From Ancylobacter tetraedralis (GTDB lineage Bacteria > Pseudomonadota > Alphaproteobacteria > Rhizobiales > Xanthobacteraceae): DNA of 64,000 bases. The stretch is from positions 62,001 through 126,000 of the forward strand of contig NZ_JACICD010000006.1 in NCBI RefSeq assembly GCF_014195655.1, given 5' to 3'. The translations under genes and the position numbers were made by a program. Shown here piece after piece: positions 4,512 to 12,420 of the stretch (positions within the stretch are counted from its first letter, which is position 1; each line of letters opens with the position of its first letter). The notes under the pieces are model-generated. The model did not search any database and had not been told where the DNA came from. It saw only the letters and a program-made list of their open reading frames with translations.

Positions 4512-5504
4512 TCAGGGCTTCAGGTACGACTTCAGGATCGAGGCGCCCATCGTGTATTTCGGATCGACCATGTTGCCGAGCCGCACGCGGCCGCACTGGG
4601 TCAGCAGCATATAGGCCTCGATCTCGTCGAAGCCGAAATCGGCCGCCATCCAGCGGATGAGGTCGCGATAGGCCATGCGGGTGGCGTCCTCCATCGGCCG
4701 GGTGGAGCCGATCGACATGATGAACTCTTCCGTCTCCAGGCGGGGGGTGGAGATGGTCCAGCCCTTGATCAGGTCGATCTGGATGGTGGTGACGGTCGGG
4801 TGCTCCAGCGCGACACCGCACAATTCGCCGTCGCCCTGCGTGGCGTGGCAGTCGCCGAGATAGACGAGGCCGCCCTTGGTGTTCACCGGCAGGTAGACGA
4901 CGGCGCCGACGCCGACATCGGGCAGGTCCATGTTGCCGCCGTAATAGTCCGGCTGAAGCGAGGTGATCGCCTCGATCTCCGGCGAGGTGCCGATGGTGCC
5001 GATGAAGGGCACGTAGGGCAGCGTGATCGTGTCGTTCCACTTCGTGCCGGTCTGCGCATCGACATGCAGCTTCTTCACCCGCACCGGCAGCGGCGCGTTG
5101 AGCATGGCGGTGTCCTTGGTCGGCACCAGCCCGCCGAAATCCGGCATGATGAGCGTGGTGCCCACCGGCTGCTCGCCGCGCGGCACGATGCTCTTGATGT
5201 AAATGGCGATGGTGTCGCCCTTCTCCGCGCCCTTGACGTAGATCGGCCCATTCTGCGGGTTGAGATAGGGGAAGTTGAGGATCTCCAGCGGGTTGTCGGT
5301 CTCGTGGCGGATCTTGCCCTCGAACGCGTCATGCGTCTCGGCGGCGACCACCGCGCCCGGATCGACCTCCAGCACGGGGGAGACATAGGGGCCGTAGACA
5401 TAGTGATAGGTGCCCTGCTCCGCTTCGGTCAGGGTGTGGGACGCGCCCGGCTGGCCCTTGGCGAGGCCTTTGCGCGCCATGATGGAATTTTCGAGCCAGG
5501 ACAT
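4512..5504 (-). CDS. Acetamidase/formamidase family protein
   Basis: A 330-residue member of the FmdA/AmdA family, which hydrolyses formamide or short aliphatic amides to the acid and ammonia. Typical family segments are visible: IYVKGAEKGDTIAIYI near the N-terminus, MPDFGG, the GGNMD turn before LYLPV-type text, and GDCHATQGDGELCGVALE with its likely metal and catalytic residues. The ATG at 5504 has an AAGGAG site. It is of the shorter AmdA-type length rather than the roughly 400-residue Methylophilus FmdA. It lies 30 bp after the last transporter gene of the AmiCR-controlled operon, so its substrate is probably the amide brought in by that transporter. Whether it prefers formamide, acetamide or a larger amide is not decided by sequence. 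Confidence 0.9.
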   Translation of the reverse strand: MSWLENSIMARKGLAKGQPGASHTLTEAEQGTYHYVYGPYVSPVLEVDPGAVVAAETHDAFEGKIRHETDNPLEILNFPYLNPQNGPIYVKGAEKGDTIAIYIKSIVPRGEQPVGTTLIMPDFGGLVPTKDTAMLNAPLPVRVKKLHVDAQTGTKWNDTITLPYVPFIGTIGTSPEIEAITSLQPDYYGGNMDLPDVGVGAVVYLPVNTKGGLVYLGDCHATQGDGELCGVALEHPTVTTIQIDLIKGWTISTPRLETEEFIMSIGSTRPMEDATRMAYRDLIRWMAADFGFDEIEAYMLLTQCGRVRLGNMVDPKYTMGASILKSYLKP

Positions 5505-5534: not shown

Positions 5535-6233
5535 TCAGACGGCGAGGTGGCGACGCATGGCCTCGCCATCGGCGAGCGCCTCGCGTTCGAGCTTGGCGAC
5601 GATGCGGCCCTTGTCCAGCACGTAGCAGCGCTGGGCCATCGCGCGGATCATGTCGATATTCTGCTCGACCAGAACGATGGTGACGCCGGTATCCTTGTTG
5701 AGCTGCACCATGATGCGGGCAATGTCCTGCACGATGTTGGGCTGGATGCCCTCGGACGGCTCGTCGAGCAGGATGAGCGAGGGGTTGGCCACCAGCACGC
5801 GGCCAATGGCGAGCTGCTGCTGCTGGCCGCCCGAGAGGGTGCCGGCGCGCTGCGCCCAGCGCTCCTCCAGAATCGGGAAATAGCCGAGCACGCGCCGGCG
5901 GTCGGCGTCCGAGACGCCGCCTTTGCGCATGCCGCCGACCGCGATGTTCTCTCCCACGCTGAGGCGGGGGAACACGTCGCGGCCCTGCGGCACGTAGCCG
6001 ATGCCGAGCCGAGCGCGCTTGAACGCGGACAGGCCCTCCACCGGCTTGTCGCGATAGACGATCGAGCCTTCCATGGCCGGCACCAAGCCGATCAGGCTCT
6101 TCATCAGCGTCGACTTGCCCACGCCGTTGCGCCCGATCACCGCGACGATCTCGCCCTCGCGCACGTCGAGGTCGAGCCCCTGCAGCACCGGCTTGCCGCC
6201 ATAGCCGGCCCGCAGGCCGAGCGTGGAGAGCAT
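5535..6233 (-). CDS. urtE: Urea/amide-type branched-chain ABC transporter ATP-binding protein (UrtE-like)
   Basis: A 232-residue ABC ATPase of the LivF/UrtE group: Walker A GRNGVGKST, signature LSGGQQQQLAIGR, Walker B LILLDEPSEGIQP and switch His/Glu region LVEQN. The ATG at 6233 was preferred because AAGGA lies just before it and the protein then begins like UrtE proteins (MLSTLGLRAGYGG); in-frame ATGs at 6248 and 6269 are possible. The gene follows the UrtD-like gene by 7 bp. It would form one of the two nucleotide-binding subunits of an importer with the adjacent permeases. The operon context (AmiC, AmiR, amidases) argues for short-chain amides rather than urea as substrate. Confidence 0.88.
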   Translation of the reverse strand: MLSTLGLRAGYGGKPVLQGLDLDVREGEIVAVIGRNGVGKSTLMKSLIGLVPAMEGSIVYRDKPVEGLSAFKRARLGIGYVPQGRDVFPRLSVGENIAVGGMRKGGVSDADRRRVLGYFPILEERWAQRAGTLSGGQQQQLAIGRVLVANPSLILLDEPSEGIQPNIVQDIARIMVQLNKDTGVTIVLVEQNIDMIRAMAQRCYVLDKGRIVAKLEREALADGEAMRRHLAV

Positions 6234-6240
6234 GACTTCC

Positions 6241-7008
6241 TTACGCATGGACGCCCCCGGTCTGTGCATGAGACGTGTCGTGTGCCGCTTCCTGCGCTGT
6301 CGCCTGCCCGAGATAGATGGCCGCCACCCGCTCGTCGGCGACGATGGCGTCGATGGTTCCTTGAGCGAACACCTTGCCCAGATGCAGCACCGTGACCTGG
6401 TCCGCGACCTGGCGCACGAAGGCCATGTCGTGCTCCACCGCCAGCACCGTCATGCCCTCGGCGTTGAGCCGCTTGACCATCTCGCCGGTGGCATGGGTCT
6501 CCTCCGGCGACATGCCGGCGGTCGGCTCGTCGAGCAGCAGCAGGCGCGGCTTGAGGCTGACCGCCATGCCGATCTCCAGCCACTGCTTCTGCCCGTGCGA
6601 CAGGTTGCCGGCCAGCCGCCCCGCGTCGGCGGTGAGGTTGAGGAAGTCGAGCAGCGCGCCGATCTCCCGCGAGAGGCTCGCCGGGTCGTAATGGTGCTGC
6701 ATCGCGATCTCGAGATTCTGCCGAACGCTCAGCGCCTTGAAGATGCCCGGCACCTGGAATTTCACGCTCATGCCGCGGCGGATGCGCTGGAACGGCTTGA
6801 GCGCGGTGATGTCCTCGCCGGCGAACAGGATGGCGCCCGAGCTTGGCGGGTGCTCGCCGAGGATGAGGCGGAACAGGGTCGACTTGCCCGCGCCGTTCGG
6901 CCCGATCAGGCAATGCACCTGCCCGGTCTCCAGCGCGAGGTCGACATTGTTGGTGACGTGCAGGCCGCCGAACCTCTTGTTGAGCGCGCGTGTCTCCAGA
7001 AGCGGCAT
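6241..7008 (-). CDS. urtD: Urea/amide-type branched-chain ABC transporter ATP-binding protein (UrtD-like)
   Basis: A 255-residue ABC ATPase of the LivG/UrtD group with Walker A GPNGAGKST, the MSVKFQVPGIFKALSV segment characteristic of UrtD, a signature variant NLSHGQKQWLEIGMA (LSHGQ, as in UrtD proteins) and Walker B LLLLDEPTAGMSP. The start ATG at 7008 overlaps the permease stop (ATGA), showing translational coupling. A frame extension to 7293 lies entirely inside the upstream gene and is rejected. It pairs with the UrtE-like ATPase in the same importer. Confidence 0.9.
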   Translation of the reverse strand: MPLLETRALNKRFGGLHVTNNVDLALETGQVHCLIGPNGAGKSTLFRLILGEHPPSSGAILFAGEDITALKPFQRIRRGMSVKFQVPGIFKALSVRQNLEIAMQHHYDPASLSREIGALLDFLNLTADAGRLAGNLSHGQKQWLEIGMAVSLKPRLLLLDEPTAGMSPEETHATGEMVKRLNAEGMTVLAVEHDMAFVRQVADQVTVLHLGKVFAQGTIDAIVADERVAAIYLGQATAQEAAHDTSHAQTGGVHA

Positions 7009-8072
7009 CACAGGTCTCCCGGCTGGCGCTTGGCGAAGGGTCGGGCGATGAGCCGGGCGAGCGCGAAGATGAGCCCGCTCGGCGCCAGCAGCACGGTGAG
7101 CACCAGCATCGCCCCCATCACCACAAGCGCGTACTGGCTGCCGTGGATGGTGAGCGCCTGGAACACGGCGAGCACGGTCACCGTGCCGATCAGCGTGGTG
7201 GTGAGATCCGAGCGCCCGCCGACCGCGACCCACACGATGGGCAGGGCGGCGGCCGTCATGCCCATGCTGGAGGGCGTGATGTACTGGCCCCACGAAGTGT
7301 AGAGCACGCCCGACAGCCCCGCGAGCGCCGCGCCGATGACGAAGGTGCCGAGCTGGTACTTGCGGATGTCATAGCCGAGCATCTCGGCGCGCTCGGGGTT
7401 CTCGCGGATGGCCACCAGCACGTTGCCGAAGCGCGAATTCACCAGGATGCGCAAGGCGAGGTAGATCACCACCAGCATGGCGAGCACGACATAGTAGAGT
7501 TCGACATCGGGAAACAGCACGATGTCGCCGCCCGGCCATGGAAGGGTGAGCGGAGGCATGTTGCTCATGCCGTTGAAGCCGTTGAGCCGGGCGCTGCCGA
7601 TCTTCCATTCCGGGCCGGCGGTCTGTGCCATGAAGCGCTCCAGCACCAGCGTCACCGACAGGGTGACGATGCCGAGGAACACGCCCGAGATGCGTCCGAA
7701 GAACAGGAAATAGCCGATCAGCGCCGCGAACAGCGCCGCCAGCAACACCGCGAAGACCAGCGCGACGAAGGTGAAGCCGTAGGCCGAGCCGAAATTGATG
7801 GTGAGGATGCCATAGCTGTAGCCGGCGATGCCGAAGAATGCCGTCTGCCCGAAGCTAAGCGAGCCGCCATAGCCCCAGATCAGGCACAGGCCGAGCGCCA
7901 TGAAGATCCAGGTGAAGAAATACACCGTGTTGCCGACCGTATAGCCGTCCGAGACCAGCGGATAGGCCATCGCGCAGGCGACGGCGACGACGAAGCCGAG
8001 CCAGAACAGCGGGCCGCGGCCCAGTGTCTGCGGGCCCTCCAGACGGCGGAAGAAGCGGGTGAGCGCGTTCAT
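7008..8072 (-). CDS. urtC: Urea/amide-type ABC transporter permease (UrtC-like)
   Basis: A 354-residue integral membrane protein with about nine or ten hydrophobic helices and the LivM/UrtC family text GGSLSFGQTAFFGIAGYSYG, followed by the conserved cytoplasmic loop region RENPERAEMLGYD that couples to the ATPase. A soluble N-terminal stretch of about 25 residues precedes the first helix, as in UrtC. It sits 36 bp after the UrtB-like gene and overlaps the UrtD-like gene. It forms the channel together with the UrtB-like permease. Confidence 0.9.
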   Translation of the reverse strand: MNALTRFFRRLEGPQTLGRGPLFWLGFVVAVACAMAYPLVSDGYTVGNTVYFFTWIFMALGLCLIWGYGGSLSFGQTAFFGIAGYSYGILTINFGSAYGFTFVALVFAVLLAALFAALIGYFLFFGRISGVFLGIVTLSVTLVLERFMAQTAGPEWKIGSARLNGFNGMSNMPPLTLPWPGGDIVLFPDVELYYVVLAMLVVIYLALRILVNSRFGNVLVAIRENPERAEMLGYDIRKYQLGTFVIGAALAGLSGVLYTSWGQYITPSSMGMTAAALPIVWVAVGGRSDLTTTLIGTVTVLAVFQALTIHGSQYALVVMGAMLVLTVLLAPSGLIFALARLIARPFAKRQPGDL

Positions 8073-8108: not shown

Positions 8109-8981
8109 TCAGGCGCGCTCGCGCAGCAGCAGCCCGGAAATGCCGCGCGGCAGGACGCGTATGACGATGATGACGGCGACCAGCAGGCCGATCTGGCCGA
8201 ACAGCTGGCCGTACCAGGAGGTCATGGTCGCCTTCACCACGGCGAGCAGCGCCGCCGCCGGCGCGGTGCCGAGGAACACGTCGGCGCCCCCCACCACCAC
8301 GGTCACGAAGGCTTCCATGATGAAGGTGGTGCCCATGGTCGGCACCAGCGTCATGGTCGGGGCATAGAGCCCGCCGGCCAGCCCGGCGAGCCCGGCGCCG
8401 AGCGCGAAGGTCAGGCTGTAGACCAGCCGCGTGTCGACGCCGAGCGCCGCCGCCATGTGCGGCACCTGGATGGTGGCGCGGGCCATGACGCCGAACCGCG
8501 TCCAGTTGAACAGCGCGTAGAGGCCGCCGAGCACGGCCACCGCCATGGCGAACAGCACCAGCCGATAGACCGAATAGGAATAGCCGCCCACCGGGAAGCT
8601 GCCGAACGGCGTGCCCACCCCGGCCATGGTGGAGCCGAGCAGGATGAGCGTGCCCTGCGTGCCGATGAGGCTGAGGCCCCAGGTGGCGACGATGGTATCC
8701 AGCGGCCGGTCGTAGAGATGACGGATGACGACGATCTCGACCACCGCCCCGACCAGGCCGGAGACGACCGCCCCGAGAAGGATGGCGAGCGGCAGCGGCA
8801 CGCCGGCATGAGCGGCGGAGACCGTGACATAGGCGCCGCACATGATGAACTCGCCATGCGCGAGATTGATCACGCCCATCATCCCGAAGATGACGGCCAG
8901 CCCGCAGGCGGACAGCACCAGGAAGGCGAAGGCGTCGCCGAACTGGTAGAGCGCGGAGAAGGCGAGGGTTCCGACATCCAT
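8109..8981 (-). CDS. urtB: Urea/amide-type ABC transporter permease (UrtB-like)
   Basis: A 290-residue LivH/UrtB-type permease. The N-terminal family motif GVINLAHGEFIMCGAYV is present, with several further hydrophobic helices and the coupling-loop text FNWTRFGVMARATIQ. The ATG at 8981 (MDVGTLAF) was chosen because longer forms begin with a charged, proline-rich stretch of no family resemblance. It is separated from the substrate-binding protein gene by 183 bp that hold a strong stem-loop, so expression of the two is probably not equal. Confidence 0.88.
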   Translation of the reverse strand: MDVGTLAFSALYQFGDAFAFLVLSACGLAVIFGMMGVINLAHGEFIMCGAYVTVSAAHAGVPLPLAILLGAVVSGLVGAVVEIVVIRHLYDRPLDTIVATWGLSLIGTQGTLILLGSTMAGVGTPFGSFPVGGYSYSVYRLVLFAMAVAVLGGLYALFNWTRFGVMARATIQVPHMAAALGVDTRLVYSLTFALGAGLAGLAGGLYAPTMTLVPTMGTTFIMEAFVTVVVGGADVFLGTAPAAALLAVVKATMTSWYGQLFGQIGLLVAVIIVIRVLPRGISGLLLRERA

Positions 8982-9046
8982 CGGCGGGCAGCCTTGCGGT
9001 TCGGGGGAAAGGCGGCGCGGGGAAGACAACCCGGCGCGAAGAAGGA

Positions 9047-9164: not shown

Positions 9165-10415
9165 TCAGGGCTTCGGCGGCGGGTTGGACGGAGTGTACTG
9201 GGCGCTCGGGTCGCTCTTGGTCAGGTCGCAACCCGCCTCGCCGAGCCAGTAGGGCTTGATGTCGGCCCACACTTTCGGGAAGGTGATGGAGTGATCGGCC
9301 TCCACCTTGGCGAGGTAGATGGTGTGCGACATGTGCTGGCTCTTGGGGTCGATGCACACCTTGCCTTCCGGCGCGTCCATGCACACGTCGCCCTGAGCGA
9401 TCACCTTGCGGATATCCTCGCGCTTGGTCGACTTCGCGCGCTCCACCATCTGCTTGTAGAGATAGACCGCGAGATAGGAGTTCTCGGCCTCCTGGTTCAC
9501 ATAGGGCTCGTTGGGGAACTTCGCCTTGAACTTGGCGACGAACGCCTTGGATTCCGGTGTATCCACCTCTTCGATATAGTTGGTGGTGACGTACATGTCC
9601 TTGAGCGATGGCGGCTTGAAGCGCTTGTGCTCATAGCCCTGGCCGACATTGACCGAGGAGGCCATCGGCAGGTTCACGCTGGCCGCGGCGGCCTGCTCGT
9701 AATAGGAGGCCTGCGCGGTGCCGACCAGCAGCGTCACCACGAAGTCGGGCTTGGCCTTCTGGATGTTCTGGATGTTTTGCGAGAACTGCGAGACGCCGAG
9801 CGGGATGAAGTCCTCGCCGACCATTTCACCGCCATGTTCCTTGACGATGTTGCGCACCCACTCGGCCGAGATCTGGCCGAAATTGTAATCGGCGGCGAGC
9901 GTGTAGACCTTCTTGCCGTATTTCTCCATCATCCACGGGATGAGGGTGGAGAACTGCTGCTCGGGCACCGCGCCGGTTACCACCATGTTGGCGTCGCACA
10001 CGCCGCCTTCATACTGGTTGTTGTAGAAGGCGAAGCCATCGAACTGGTTGACGATCGGCCGATAGGCCTCGCGCGAGGCCGAGGAGAAGCCGGCGAACAC
10101 GGCATCGACCTTGTCGCGCTGAAGCACGCGGCGCATGAATTCCTGGTAGCGCGTATTGTCGGACTGGGTGTCGTAGATCACCAGTTCCAGCGGGCGGCCA
10201 TCGATGCCGCCGGCCTTGTTGATCTCTTCCGCCGCGAGCTGGATCGCGTGCACCTTGCCGATGGTCGCCGCGGCGAAGTCGCCGGACTGATCCTCGAGCA
10301 CGCCGAGCTTGATGGGGTCGGCAGCGAAGGCAGGGGTGAATCCTTGGGCGACGCTGAGCAAAAGCGTCCCCGTGAGGGCTGCGGCACGCAGCCCCCGCAT
10401 GGTCTTCCCAGTCAT
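9165..10415 (-). CDS. urtA: Amide/urea-type ABC transporter substrate-binding protein (UrtA/FmdD-like)
   Basis: A 416-residue periplasmic binding protein. Residues 1-31 form a signal peptide ending in AFA before ADPIKLG. The mature protein has the type I fold typical of UrtA, FmdD and AmiC: LEDQSGDFA near the start, EEINKAGGIDGRPLELVIYDTQSDN, and FYNNQYEGGVCDANMV, the equivalent of the AmiC PTPYEGFE ligand loop. The ATG at 10415 is preceded by GGAGT. It starts 24 bp after the amiR stop. It captures the amide for the UrtBCDE-like importer. FmdD of Methylophilus binds short-chain amides and urea; a similar range is inferred here. Confidence 0.9.
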   Translation of the reverse strand: MTGKTMRGLRAAALTGTLLLSVAQGFTPAFAADPIKLGVLEDQSGDFAAATIGKVHAIQLAAEEINKAGGIDGRPLELVIYDTQSDNTRYQEFMRRVLQRDKVDAVFAGFSSASREAYRPIVNQFDGFAFYNNQYEGGVCDANMVVTGAVPEQQFSTLIPWMMEKYGKKVYTLAADYNFGQISAEWVRNIVKEHGGEMVGEDFIPLGVSQFSQNIQNIQKAKPDFVVTLLVGTAQASYYEQAAAASVNLPMASSVNVGQGYEHKRFKPPSLKDMYVTTNYIEEVDTPESKAFVAKFKAKFPNEPYVNQEAENSYLAVYLYKQMVERAKSTKREDIRKVIAQGDVCMDAPEGKVCIDPKSQHMSHTIYLAKVEADHSITFPKVWADIKPYWLGEAGCDLTKSDPSAQYTPSNPPPKP

Positions 10416-10439: not shown

Positions 10440-11090
10440 TTATTTCCGCGCCACGCCCCGGAGGGATTCGTGGCCCGGTTGTTCGAGGGCTGGCGCCCTC
10501 TTTTTCATGAATGCATCGCAGTAATCTTCGAGATTCTGCCGCGAGCGCATGCTTTCGCGACGGAGCCACTCATAGGCTTCGTCATCATCGACGCCCGCAT
10601 CGGTCATCCGGGCGATGATGGCCTTCACGACCGCACGGCGACCCCGCCGGCGGCGATCCATGTCGTCGAGCCGCGCCCGGAGGTCGCCGCGCAACAGGAA
10701 CTGGTTGATGCCGAGAAACAGCGCGGTGTAGACCGCCCCGCCCTGCACCGGCTTGCGCAGGAAGGCCGTGGCGCCGAGATGGACCAGCTGCTTCAGCCGG
10801 CTCGGGGCTTCCACCCCGACAAGGCCGATCACCGGCACCGCCGGCTGGCGCGCGCCGGCATCGATGTCGAGCGCCAGCGGATTGTCGAGGTCGCCATCGA
10901 CGAACAGAATGTCGCGCTCCGCCTGCAGCGCGGCGAGGTCGATGTCGGCGCGCCCGTCCACGAGTTCGGGCACGCTCGCGCTCACGCCGAGCTTGCCGAG
11001 CGTCGCCAGCAGCGTTTCGACCGCCGTGGGATTGGCCGTGACAATGTGCGCACGGCCGCCGTTGAAATTCTGGAGCAGTCGAGGAGCCAT
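10440..11090 (-). CDS. amiR: ANTAR-domain transcription antitermination regulator (AmiR-like)
   Basis: A 216-residue protein with an N-terminal pseudo-receiver domain (ILFVDGDLD, VPVIGLVG, GATAFLRKPV) and a C-terminal ANTAR three-helix domain at about residues 150-205 (AIIARMTDAGVDDDEAYEWLRRESMRSR). In Pseudomonas, AmiR is held by AmiC and, on amide binding, is released to bind leader RNA and prevent termination. Here the start ATG overlaps the amiC stop by one base (TGATG); a GTG one codon upstream is possible. The leader upstream of amiC carries a terminator and matching hexaloop hairpins, which supports the same mechanism in cis. Confidence 0.92.
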   Translation of the reverse strand: MAPRLLQNFNGGRAHIVTANPTAVETLLATLGKLGVSASVPELVDGRADIDLAALQAERDILFVDGDLDNPLALDIDAGARQPAVPVIGLVGVEAPSRLKQLVHLGATAFLRKPVQGGAVYTALFLGINQFLLRGDLRARLDDMDRRRRGRRAVVKAIIARMTDAGVDDDEAYEWLRRESMRSRQNLEDYCDAFMKKRAPALEQPGHESLRGVARK

Positions 11091-12235
11091 CACTTGATCA
11101 CCCTCAGCGACGCGTTGCGGGAAGCGACCGCATAGCGCGGCGACGACTGGACGAGATAGGGATCGGGCGGCACCGGCCCCGCCGCCTCGACCAGGATATC
11201 GAAGCGGGCGTCATCGTTGGAAATGCCGATGCGCGGCGTGAGATAGGCGTGCAGGGTCTGCGGATCGATGCGCACCCCGCCCTGCGGGGCGAGGAGATGC
11301 TGGCGCGTGACCGCCGCCTTCACCGCCTCGACATCGTCGCTGCCGGCCTCGGCAAGGGCCAGCATGAGAAGCTTCATGGCGATATAGGAGGCTTCCGCAT
11401 CGGCCGAGGTCGAGGGCCCCTCCGGGAACGCCTCGCGATAGGCGCGGGTGAAGGCCCGGTTGGCCGGCGTGGCGAGCGAGGAGAAATACACGCTCGAGCT
11501 GAGATGCCCCTCCACCGCGCCCTCGCCGATCTCCTCCAGCTCCGGCTCGGACAGCGTGCAGCTGGCGACCGGGAAGGTGCGGGGCTGGTCGATGCCGCGG
11601 GCGTTGCAGGCGGCGCGGAAGGCGCGGAAGAAGGCGTAGTTGCTGGTGCCGATCAGGTTGTTGAACACGAAGCTCGGCCGCGCCTCCAGGATGGCTTCCA
11701 CCACCTGGTCGATCTCGGTGTCGCCTACCGCCACATAGCGCTCGGCCAGCACCCGGGCGCCGCGCGCCGTCATCGCCTCGCGGAAGATGCGGGTATTCTC
11801 CCACGCCCAGATGTAGTTCGAACCGATGCAGAAGGCGCGCGGGCCGACATGGGCCAGCATGTAGTCAACCAGCGGAAGCACATGCTGGTTGGGCGAGGCG
11901 CCGGTATAGATGACGTTGTTGGAACTCTCGAATCCCTCGTAATGGGACGGGTACCACAGCAGCGCGTCATGCTTCTCGAAGCACGGAATCACCTCCTTGC
12001 GGCTGGAGGAGGTGTAGCAGCCCACCACATGGCGGATGCCCGATTGCAGCAATTCCCGGCTCAGCGCGGCATAGGCGGCGAGGTCGCCACCCGGATTGAC
12101 CACCACCGGCTCGACCGTGAGGCCCGGCAGCGCCTCGCGCACCGCCAGCAGCGCCCCGTTCAGCATGGAACGGGGAACGACGCTGTAGGGTCCCGTGGTC
12201 GAGAACATGACCCCTATGCGGTAGTGCCTGGACAC
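11090..12235 (-). CDS. amiC: Amide-sensing negative regulator of AmiR (AmiC-like periplasmic-binding fold)
   Basis: A 381-residue cytoplasmic protein of the periplasmic-binding fold without a signal peptide. It follows Pseudomonas AmiC closely in my recollection: IGVMFSTTGPYS, VVGCYTSSSRK, LLWYPSHYEGFE (ligand pocket loop), IGSNYIWAWENTR, and APQGGVRIDPQ. AmiC sequesters AmiR until an amide binds. The GTG at 12235 was chosen: it has GGAG at proper spacing and gives AmiC-like length, whereas the frame extension to 12319 would start inside the leader terminator. It is the first gene of the amide operon and is translationally coupled to amiR. Confidence 0.9.
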   Translation of the reverse strand: MSRHYRIGVMFSTTGPYSVVPRSMLNGALLAVREALPGLTVEPVVVNPGGDLAAYAALSRELLQSGIRHVVGCYTSSSRKEVIPCFEKHDALLWYPSHYEGFESSNNVIYTGASPNQHVLPLVDYMLAHVGPRAFCIGSNYIWAWENTRIFREAMTARGARVLAERYVAVGDTEIDQVVEAILEARPSFVFNNLIGTSNYAFFRAFRAACNARGIDQPRTFPVASCTLSEPELEEIGEGAVEGHLSSSVYFSSLATPANRAFTRAYREAFPEGPSTSADAEASYIAMKLLMLALAEAGSDDVEAVKAAVTRQHLLAPQGGVRIDPQTLHAYLTPRIGISNDDARFDILVEAAGPVPPDPYLVQSSPRYAVASRNASLRVIK

Positions 12236-12250
12236 GTTCGCGCTCCACCC

Positions 12251-12290
12251 AAAAACAAAAAACGCCCGCCGGTCAAAGGACCGTGGGCGT
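12251..12290 (-). terminator. Rho-independent terminator in the amiC leader (attenuator)
   Basis: Read on the minus strand: ACGCCC, two unpaired bases, GGTC-CTTT-GACC, three bases, GGGCGT, then a T-rich tract (TTTTT G TTTTT). It ends 15 bp before the amiC GTG, that is, between promoter and first gene, so it must be read through for the operon to be expressed. Confidence 0.85.
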
Positions 12291-12377
12291 CGTTGCCGCC
12301 AACCTGCAGCGCTTGCCAAGAAGCACCGTCGTTGGAAATGTTCATCAAGACTGCCGCGACAATGGGCATCTTTGCCC
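12286..12377 (-). promoter_or_regulatory. Putative ANTAR-responsive leader RNA: two hexaloop hairpins overlapping the terminator
   Basis: ANTAR proteins recognise paired hairpins with six-base loops having A at position 1 and G at position 4. Hairpin 1 (12377-12364, minus) is GGGC-AAAGAT-GCCC, with a loop that fits exactly. Hairpin 2 (12297-12286) is GGC-AACGAC-GCC, whose loop also fits, and its 3' arm uses the bases of the terminator's 5' arm (12290-12285). Formation of hairpin 2 would therefore block the terminator. Odd points: hairpin 2 has only three strong closing pairs, and the linker (about 66 bases) is longer than usual. The loop sequence AACGAC also occurs once more between them, in a weaker stem. 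Confidence 0.55.
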
Positions 12378-12386
12378 GCCGCTCTT

Positions 12387-12420
12387 TAATTAGGCTGGCG
12401 TGAATGCCCGCCTTTGTCAA
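12387..12420 (-). promoter_or_regulatory. Candidate promoter of the amide operon
   Basis: On the minus strand TTGACA (12420-12415) matches a -35 box and TAATTA (12392-12387) a -10 box, but the spacing is 22 bp, longer than the optimum. A transcript from here would begin about 5-10 bases before leader hairpin 1. The true -10 may be a weaker hexamer nearer to the -35. Confidence 0.4.

Follow-up and report, generated by a model that had tools for sequence, protein, structure and literature searches.

The amiC operon and its leader

The window analysed here, a 64,000-nucleotide stretch of an Ancylobacter tetraedralis contig, carries on its minus strand an operon in which Pfam searches revealed the gene order amiC, amiR (encoding an ANTAR protein), ABC transporter and formamidase. 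The genes and the elements upstream of amiC are the following.

12415..12420, minus strand: -35 box TTGACA, read directly
12391..12396, minus strand: -10-like box AGCCTA, spacer of 18, read directly
12356..12382, minus strand: P1, hexaloop hairpin with loop AAAGAT (12373-12368) and lower stem GCGGC/GTCGC, read directly
12299..12335, minus strand: PL, third hairpin within the linker, base CCAAC..GTTGG, from the pairing in relatives
12286..12297, minus strand: P2, antiterminator hairpin GGC-[AACGAC]-GCC, loop at 12294-12289, read directly
12257..12290, minus strand: intrinsic terminator and T tract, from covariation; energy -18.5 kcal/mol
12243..12249, minus strand: GGTGGAG, likely ribosome-binding site, by eye
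11090..12235, minus strand: amiC, GTG start at 12235, putative amide sensor and negative regulator (PF13433, 421.5 bits)
10440..11093, minus strand: amiR, ANTAR protein (PF03861, 38.4 bits; cut-off 27.3)
9165..10415, minus strand: substrate-binding protein of the ABC transporter (PF13458)
8109..8987, minus strand: ABC permease 1 (PF02653)
7008..8072, minus strand: ABC permease 2 (PF02653)
6241..7053, minus strand: ABC ATPase 1 (PF00005)
5535..6251, minus strand: ABC ATPase 2 (PF00005)
4512..5504, minus strand: formamidase/acetamidase FmdA (PF03069, search run on 4512-5480)

The PF03861 score confirms the ANTAR domain that a preliminary description of this DNA had ascribed to AmiR. The AmiR_N domain (PF21332) scores 25.6 bits, below its cut-off of 27, and the Pseudomonas aeruginosa AmiR (1qo0) matches the protein with an E value of 7.4e-5. 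The nearest named AmiR among the loci found is that of Ancylobacter amanitiformis (L034, 94% identity). A plasmid of Skermanella mucosa has an identical gene order; its annotation names the transporter, including the binding protein, a urea ABC transporter. Plasmid-borne amiC-amiR operons with ABC transporters have been reported (PMC13209695); the word "leader" is absent from the accessible text of that paper.

The preliminary description had placed two hairpins and a terminator between TTGACA and amiC, and the minus strand reads directly in this way. Both hexaloops, AAAGAT and AACGAC, have A at position 1 and G at position 4 (A1/G4). P1 reads GCGGC-GGGC-[AAAGAT]-GCCC-ATT-GTCGC, and the terminator (12290-12262) reads ACGCCC-A-CGGTC-CTTT-GACCG-GC-GGGCGT, with the T tract at 12262-12257. 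The 3' arm of P2 (12288-12286) falls inside the terminator 5' arm, an overlap that had also been noted earlier; P2 and the terminator are mutually exclusive, because these letters are common to both.

The window features the hallmarks of ANTAR leaders, namely two hairpins with six-base loops on stems of 3 bp or more, A1 and G4 in both loops, a second hairpin that excludes an intrinsic terminator, and a linker of variable length between the hairpins. The linker, which measures 67 nt from the 3-bp core of P1 and 66 nt from its 4-bp core, lies outside the short ranges of the eut leaders (5-12 nt) and of an actinobacterial survey (2-25 nt). The earlier estimate of a long linker of about 66 bases was accurate as to length and overlooked that the linker is folded and holds the 37-nt PL, which ends one nt before P2. 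Once the folded parts are removed, 21 nt of the linker are unpaired.

Folded as a single sequence, the leader has a z score of -1.89, and 6 of 200 shuffles fold equally well, a modest signal by itself. A simple promoter and terminator scanner, run with its own thresholds, reported no promoter and no terminator in the leader; those thresholds pass over this -10 box and an internally bulged terminator. Rfam gave no match in the window; two chance-level matches were obtained on the leader, and no family reached its gathering score.

Conservation of P1, P2 and the terminator

Relatives were gathered through AmiR from 151 genomes (57 with a match) and from public genome contigs (27 loci). Of 40 distinct leaders upstream of amiC, 39 were retained, one locus having no upstream DNA. 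The pattern P1 core, CC[AG][AG]C, G[TC]TGG, one base, GGC-N6-GCC is found in 35 of the 39, and these were aligned. Across the 35 rows, 97.3% of cells (counted with P2) or 97.7% (counted with the terminator) are paired, values that are partly fixed by the selection pattern, which sets some letters of the P1 core, the PL base and P2.

The 14 pattern-free pairs of P1 and the terminator are paired in 95.9% of cells, and eight of them changed on both sides. Their covariation score (0.303 vs 0.150 in shuffled alignments) was reached by none of 500 shuffles. When partners are slid by 1-3 columns, pairing falls to 27-51%. In P1, the inner core of which was used to pick the rows, 90.9% of lower-stem cells are paired, three of the five pairs changed on both sides, and the pair above is formed in 100% of rows. 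The terminator is paired in 99.0% of cells, with changes on both sides in 4 of 11 pairs. One of its A-U pairs is replaced by G-C in 8 of the 35 rows; the 5' letter of this pair is also position 5 of the P2 loop, so that terminator and P2 loop depend on shared letters.

The three pairs of P2 are invariant, and covariation neither supports nor opposes this hairpin; with P2 included (17 pairs), 27 of 500 shuffles reach the observed number of pair types, and shuffles can be outscored by related rows even where no structure exists. The preliminary description called the stem of hairpin 2 weak. It is indeed short, at 3 bp, but GGC-N6-GCC is kept even in the four leaders that fall outside the pattern. 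On comparative grounds, the predicted hairpins, the terminator and the P2/terminator overlap are kept in Hyphomicrobiales relatives, with compensatory changes in P1 and the terminator.

A covariance model (R1) was built from the 35 aligned leaders. In its own genome, R1 has one good match (E 5.9e-28; next best 0.31). At E<=0.01, weak matches included, it hits 64 of 296 genomes of the family and 29 of 397 genomes of the order. Twenty loci were checked: amiC-amiR lies directly downstream of all 13 with E<=1e-5 and of none of the 7 weaker ones. The latter (E 2e-5 to 2e-3), which have no amiC, were taken as chance matches.

Two distant loci, L162 and L163, came from an AmiR search across the class. 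Of the resulting 72 distinct amiC leaders, L162 was dropped (no readable leader). The two-hairpin parse, which requires stems and loops by design, accepted 70 of the remaining 71; the exception, L100, has a seven-base loop 1 or a longer stem. A TTGAC box is present 20-55 nt upstream of P1 in all 70 parsed leaders, and the start site is therefore likely to lie upstream of the terminator. The -10-like box is AGCCTA in 28 of the 39 leaders, ACCGTA in 6, AGCTTA in 2 and none of these in 3. Both checks put forward in the preliminary description thus came out in its favour, the start site as judged from sequence, and conservation in that stems and terminator are kept, as are the loops in most near relatives.

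A third hairpin beside P2

PL ranges from 30 to 38 nt in the 35 aligned rows, for which the pattern requires one nt between PL and P2. The basal pair left free on both sides by the pattern is A-U in 32 rows and G-C in 3, and is never mispaired. The upper stem, on which the pattern places no constraint, has a mean of 6.3 bp and a minimum of 3, vs a mean of 2.97 bp with shuffled interiors; the largest of 1000 shuffled means is 3.71 bp. Letters of the upper stem turn over while pairing persists.

The 70-leader set was assembled without reference to PL; in it, a hairpin beside P2 was sought with a gap of 0-2 nt. Relative to dinucleotide shuffles, this hairpin has a mean z of -2.03, and 60 of 70 leaders fall below -1; 56 leaders have 1 nt between it and P2, and 14 have none. 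The signal is found mainly in the 55 leaders with a TTCC[AG][AG]C base (mean z -2.26, 52 below -1). For PL outside the CCAAC-type leaders, the comparison gives weaker support: the hairpin in these 15 leaders has a mean z of -1.17, with 8 below -1 and a gap of 1 nt in 13. In some R1 loci, chiefly of family f35, the place of PL is taken by a hairpin whose sequence is unrelated. A single-helix length statistic over all leaders (5.79 vs 4.79 bp shuffled), in which P2 was misparsed in a few rows (L033, L111, L112), was too weak to support PL.

Under default dangle settings, the lowest-energy fold of the trimmed leader breaks PL (-51.5 kcal/mol vs -48.9 for P1, PL and terminator as drawn), while folding with dangles 3, or with ten extra 5' bases, keeps it. 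Comparison among leaders shows P1, the terminator, the P2/terminator overlap and, in CCAAC-type leaders, PL.

A mostly unpaired CATTTCC at the start of PL (12340-12334, minus strand) is found in 49 of 70 leaders. This sequence is more fixed than pairing requires, and it may be a contact site.

The preliminary description had pointed to an extra AACGAC between the two hairpins. It is present, and is built from the 3' letters of CCAAC, followed by GA, an internal loop of PL, and by a C that is paired in PL. As it is a PL strand, and as CCAACGAC occurs in just 21 of 70 leaders, which indicates that there is no conserved third binding loop, its role as a third hexaloop was ruled out.

Linker length and unpaired spacer

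In the 70 parsed leaders, the P1-P2 linker ranges from 32 to 86 nt (median 63, sd 7.4). PL was called in 69 of them at a lenient cut-off of -3 kcal/mol. With the P1 lower stem and PL taken out, the median unpaired spacer is 19 nt (range 9-28, sd 3.7); in 12 Bradyrhizobium-type rows a longer alternative pairing was counted as PL, which lowers the value to 9-12 nt.

Leaders without PL were found in two settings. Eight plasmid amiC leaders were read, three of which (L164, L170 and L171) were unparsed and lie outside the spacer count. The other five, from Methylobacterium (two), Paracoccus, Shinella and Rhizobium, have no PL, and their linkers measure 30-39 nt in total with 18-27 nt unpaired. Six further leaders, located on the divergent side of amiC-amiR (see below), also have no PL and feature linkers of 34-35 nt with 22-24 nt unpaired. 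By this comparison, the predicted unpaired spacer is near-constant and close to that of relatives without PL. The leaders thus constitute a natural experiment on spacing, in which total linkers of 30 to 86 nt go with a median of about 20 unpaired nt.

In the AmiC tree, in which long branches leave some placements unsure, a single branch (support 96/96) takes in 68 of the 69 PL rows, and the six rows without PL lie outside. The branch also holds Skermanella, the leader of which is unparsed. The one PL row outside it, Brucella pituitosa, has a 5-bp mini-hairpin.

The Shinella and Rhizobium WL3 leaders (L167 and L168) have, by eye, both hexaloop hairpins and no T tract, and one hairpin arm resembles the sequence at the ribosome-binding site. 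This likeness, along with the lack of a T tract, suggests that translational control may operate in these two leaders.

Variation of the loops and AmiR contact residues

A1 and G4 are found in both loops in 38 of the 70 leaders, in loop 1 alone in 17, in loop 2 alone in 2, and in neither loop in 13; 32 leaders therefore deviate from A1/G4 in one loop or both. The 13 leaders with both loops off the rule all fall within a 26-row AmiC branch (support 100/99), as do the Bradyrhizobium rows. In these Bradyrhizobium-type leaders (e.g., L031, L032, L149-L151 and L153), stems, PL and terminator stay. Natural loops such as GAGGGC and AACTAA thus break the A1/G4 rule. Loop 2 starts with G and ends with C in 25 of 70 leaders, and a G1-C6 pair could close in these, leaving a four-base loop; modelled in this way, GAGGGC has an energy of -4.8 vs -2.8 kcal/mol.

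Contact-residue roles in EutV have been described (PMC8934654, as far as its available text goes), and the offset between EutV and AmiR numbering was derived in this analysis. AmiR could be read at these positions in 53 of 68 rows, 15 being cut short. The equivalents of EutV R142, Y164 and M172 are R, Y and M in 53 of 53 readable rows, and the equivalent of K149 is I or V in 52 of 53. The K147, K149 and E160 positions differ between AmiR groups. Coevolution of contact residues with the loop changes is not claimed, as group differences can follow the tree.

Comparison with known ANTAR systems

In the ANTAR systems described, as far as the available texts go, the protein binds hexaloops and P2 excludes a terminator (PMC3369931, PMC3369936, PMC8934654, PMC7496416). 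The closest parallels differ from the Ancylobacter leader in distinct ways. The eutP, eutG, eutS and eutA leaders of Enterococcus faecalis, controlled by EutV, share the pair of A1/G4 hexaloops, the terminator overlap and the ANTAR protein (PMC3369931, PMC8934654), but have a 5-12 nt linker and a kinase sensor, in contrast to the 67 nt with a third hairpin and the AmiC-type sensor found here. The P. aeruginosa amiE leader, compared here by its description, shares the AmiC-AmiR pair and a dual hexaloop motif with terminator (PMC3369931, PMC3369936). It precedes the amidase gene amiE, whereas amiC comes first here, with the transporter and FmdA genes behind it. The Klebsiella oxytoca nasF leader likewise opposes a dual hexaloop to a terminator, but NasR is a one-component nitrate sensor, and a third hairpin is absent from the nasF descriptions as available (PMC7496416, PMC3369936); part of the nasF linker is reported to be essential (PMC3369936). 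Actinobacterial ANTAR RNAs belong to the same dual hexaloop motif family. According to its accessible text, the survey that described them kept linkers of 2-25 nt (PMC8164766), whereas those of all 70 parsed leaders here span 32-86 nt; a survey limiting the linker to 25 nt would miss these leaders. Putative NasT hairpins have been noted in a few Bradyrhizobium leaders (PMC6759348, available text).

Spacing is described as strict in the eut system: linkers measure 5-12 nt, a length of 3 or 14 nt brings a drastic loss (PMC3369931, PMC8934654), and a linker lengthened by 20 nt abolished EutV antitermination in vitro (PMC8934654), as stated in the parts of these papers that were available. The present leaders bear on how an ANTAR protein uses two loops, for which the EutV crystal structure indicates one loop bound at once and strict spacing. 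Even the unpaired spacer of about 20 nt exceeds the lengths known to work in the EutV system. Either the leaders violate the EutV spacing rule, or their folded linkers let them satisfy a relaxed version of it.

No description of a third hairpin in ANTAR leaders, or of the leader of this operon, was found among the literature matches listed (titles and abstract starts, mainly open literature). The leader precedes genes for the uptake and degradation of small amides and appears to be a protein-controlled RNA switch of a kind already known; the novelty lies in an extra folded arm common to many relatives, which challenges the rule that the two arms have to lie close to each other.

Proposed mechanism and alternatives

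Judged from sequence, this three-hairpin leader probably serves AmiR-dependent transcription antitermination. The general ANTAR mechanism suggested in the preliminary description fits, as evidenced by the conserved stems and terminator, the loops kept in most near relatives and the ANTAR gene in the operon. The R, Y and M residues that AmiR has in common with EutV add to this, whereas the I or V at the K149 position and the many leaders off the A1/G4 rule speak against it. Self-antitermination would follow from the presence of that gene, while we infer AmiR binding, amide as the signal and the role of PL.

In the absence of amide, AmiC would hold AmiR, as is known for Pseudomonas. P1 and PL would fold in the nascent RNA, followed by the terminator, and transcription would end before amiC. 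In the presence of amide, free AmiR would bind the P1 loop and then the emerging P2, and would hold P2. Held in this way, P2 would take the terminator 5' arm, and the polymerase would continue into amiC, amiR, the transporter genes and fmdA; by reading through into amiR, the operon would feed itself. PL could fold in both the terminated and the antiterminated states. Predicted energies, as drawn, are -48.9 kcal/mol for the terminator state, -40.7 for the antiterminated state and -2.8 for P2 alone. As the terminator state is lower than the P2 state by about 8 kcal/mol, the leader would be off by default. Since P2 alone amounts to just -2.8 kcal/mol and the antiterminated state is the higher one, something must hold P2.

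The most likely job of PL is to shorten the P1-P2 distance, leaving an unpaired spacer of about 20 nt, and PL may in addition stack on the 3-bp stem of P2. We favour this spacer or platform role. More tentatively, the third, docked hairpin could be a working part, platform or pause, in a P1 to P2 hand-over across 44-68 nt, and in Bradyrhizobium-type members the architecture could replace part of the A1/G4 code, with recognition by other features.

Hairpin pauses have a characteristic spacing and Y-1/G+1 bases. PL could be such a hairpin, at which the polymerase would stall at the P2 loop and let P1-bound AmiR move to P2; this main rival to the spacer or platform role is rather unlikely, though it fits several observations. 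With a gap of one nt, the 3' base of PL lies 10 nt before position 6 of the P2 loop. Of 70 leaders, 61 carry a pyrimidine at position 6 and all 70 continue with G, a letter fixed by the pattern, so that both the position of PL and the bases at loop position 6 fit a hairpin pause. Movement from P1 to P2 during transcription is also the model put forward in the available text of PMC8934654. However, the terminator and P2 need the same C and G, which confounds this conservation, 9 of 70 leaders do not have the pyrimidine, and leaders without PL exist.

Alternatively, PL could be a passive insertion that is inherited as neutral padding, in which case any linker that is short or folded would do. 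The five plasmid amiC leaders and the six divergent-side leaders that do without PL, the grouping of PL rows in one branch and the weak support for PL outside the CCAAC type are consistent with this. We consider it unlikely, as the upper stem stays paired as its letters change, the 1-nt gap to P2 is found in 13 of the 15 leaders with other hairpin letters, and the unpaired CATTTCC precedes PL in 49 of 70. An ordinary constitutive or peptide-controlled attenuator with coincidental hexaloops, suggested by the strong terminator and by the many relatives without the full A1/G4 set, is very improbable, since the 70 leaders have no common ORF, for which reason a leader peptide was rejected (the longest closed ORFs vary in length and start codon, and 14 leaders have none), linker lengths cover all three frames, and amiC-amiR adjoins 13/13 model loci at E<=1e-5 and 0/7 weaker ones.

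Other amiC-amiR loci and divergent nitrile hydratase genes

The genome contains two additional amiC-amiR pairs. One (L061/L001, contig C2, ~18-20 kb) lies beside a carbon-nitrogen-hydrolase-like gene; a terminator leader was sought there by eye and none was evident. The other (L062, contig C6, ~41.3-41.5 kb) adjoins a peptide-type ABC permease gene and has its own leader. By eye, this leader consists of TTGACA, the adjacent hairpins GGCT-GAAGA-AGCC and GGGC-AACAGC-GCCC, and a long terminator. The fit of its loops to A1/G4 is inexact.

In six genomes, a second leader of the same kind faces away from amiC-amiR. These divergent-side leaders have A1/G4 in both loops (6/6), and nitrile hydratase genes lie on the divergent side at all six loci (L126-L129, L156 and L157; Pfam search on L126). 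Nitrile hydratase genes are also divergent in L130, L134, L135 and L136, where there is no second R1 match. Altogether, 10 of the 11 loci tested have nitrile hydratase genes divergent from amiC-amiR-fmdA; L131 features the transporter instead. A weak R1 match in Kaistia (9.3e-5) is regarded as real because nitrile hydratase lies downstream of it. AmiR may run a regulon leading from nitrile to amide to acid. In 6 of the 10 nitrile hydratase loci, a CbtA cobalt-transporter gene follows.
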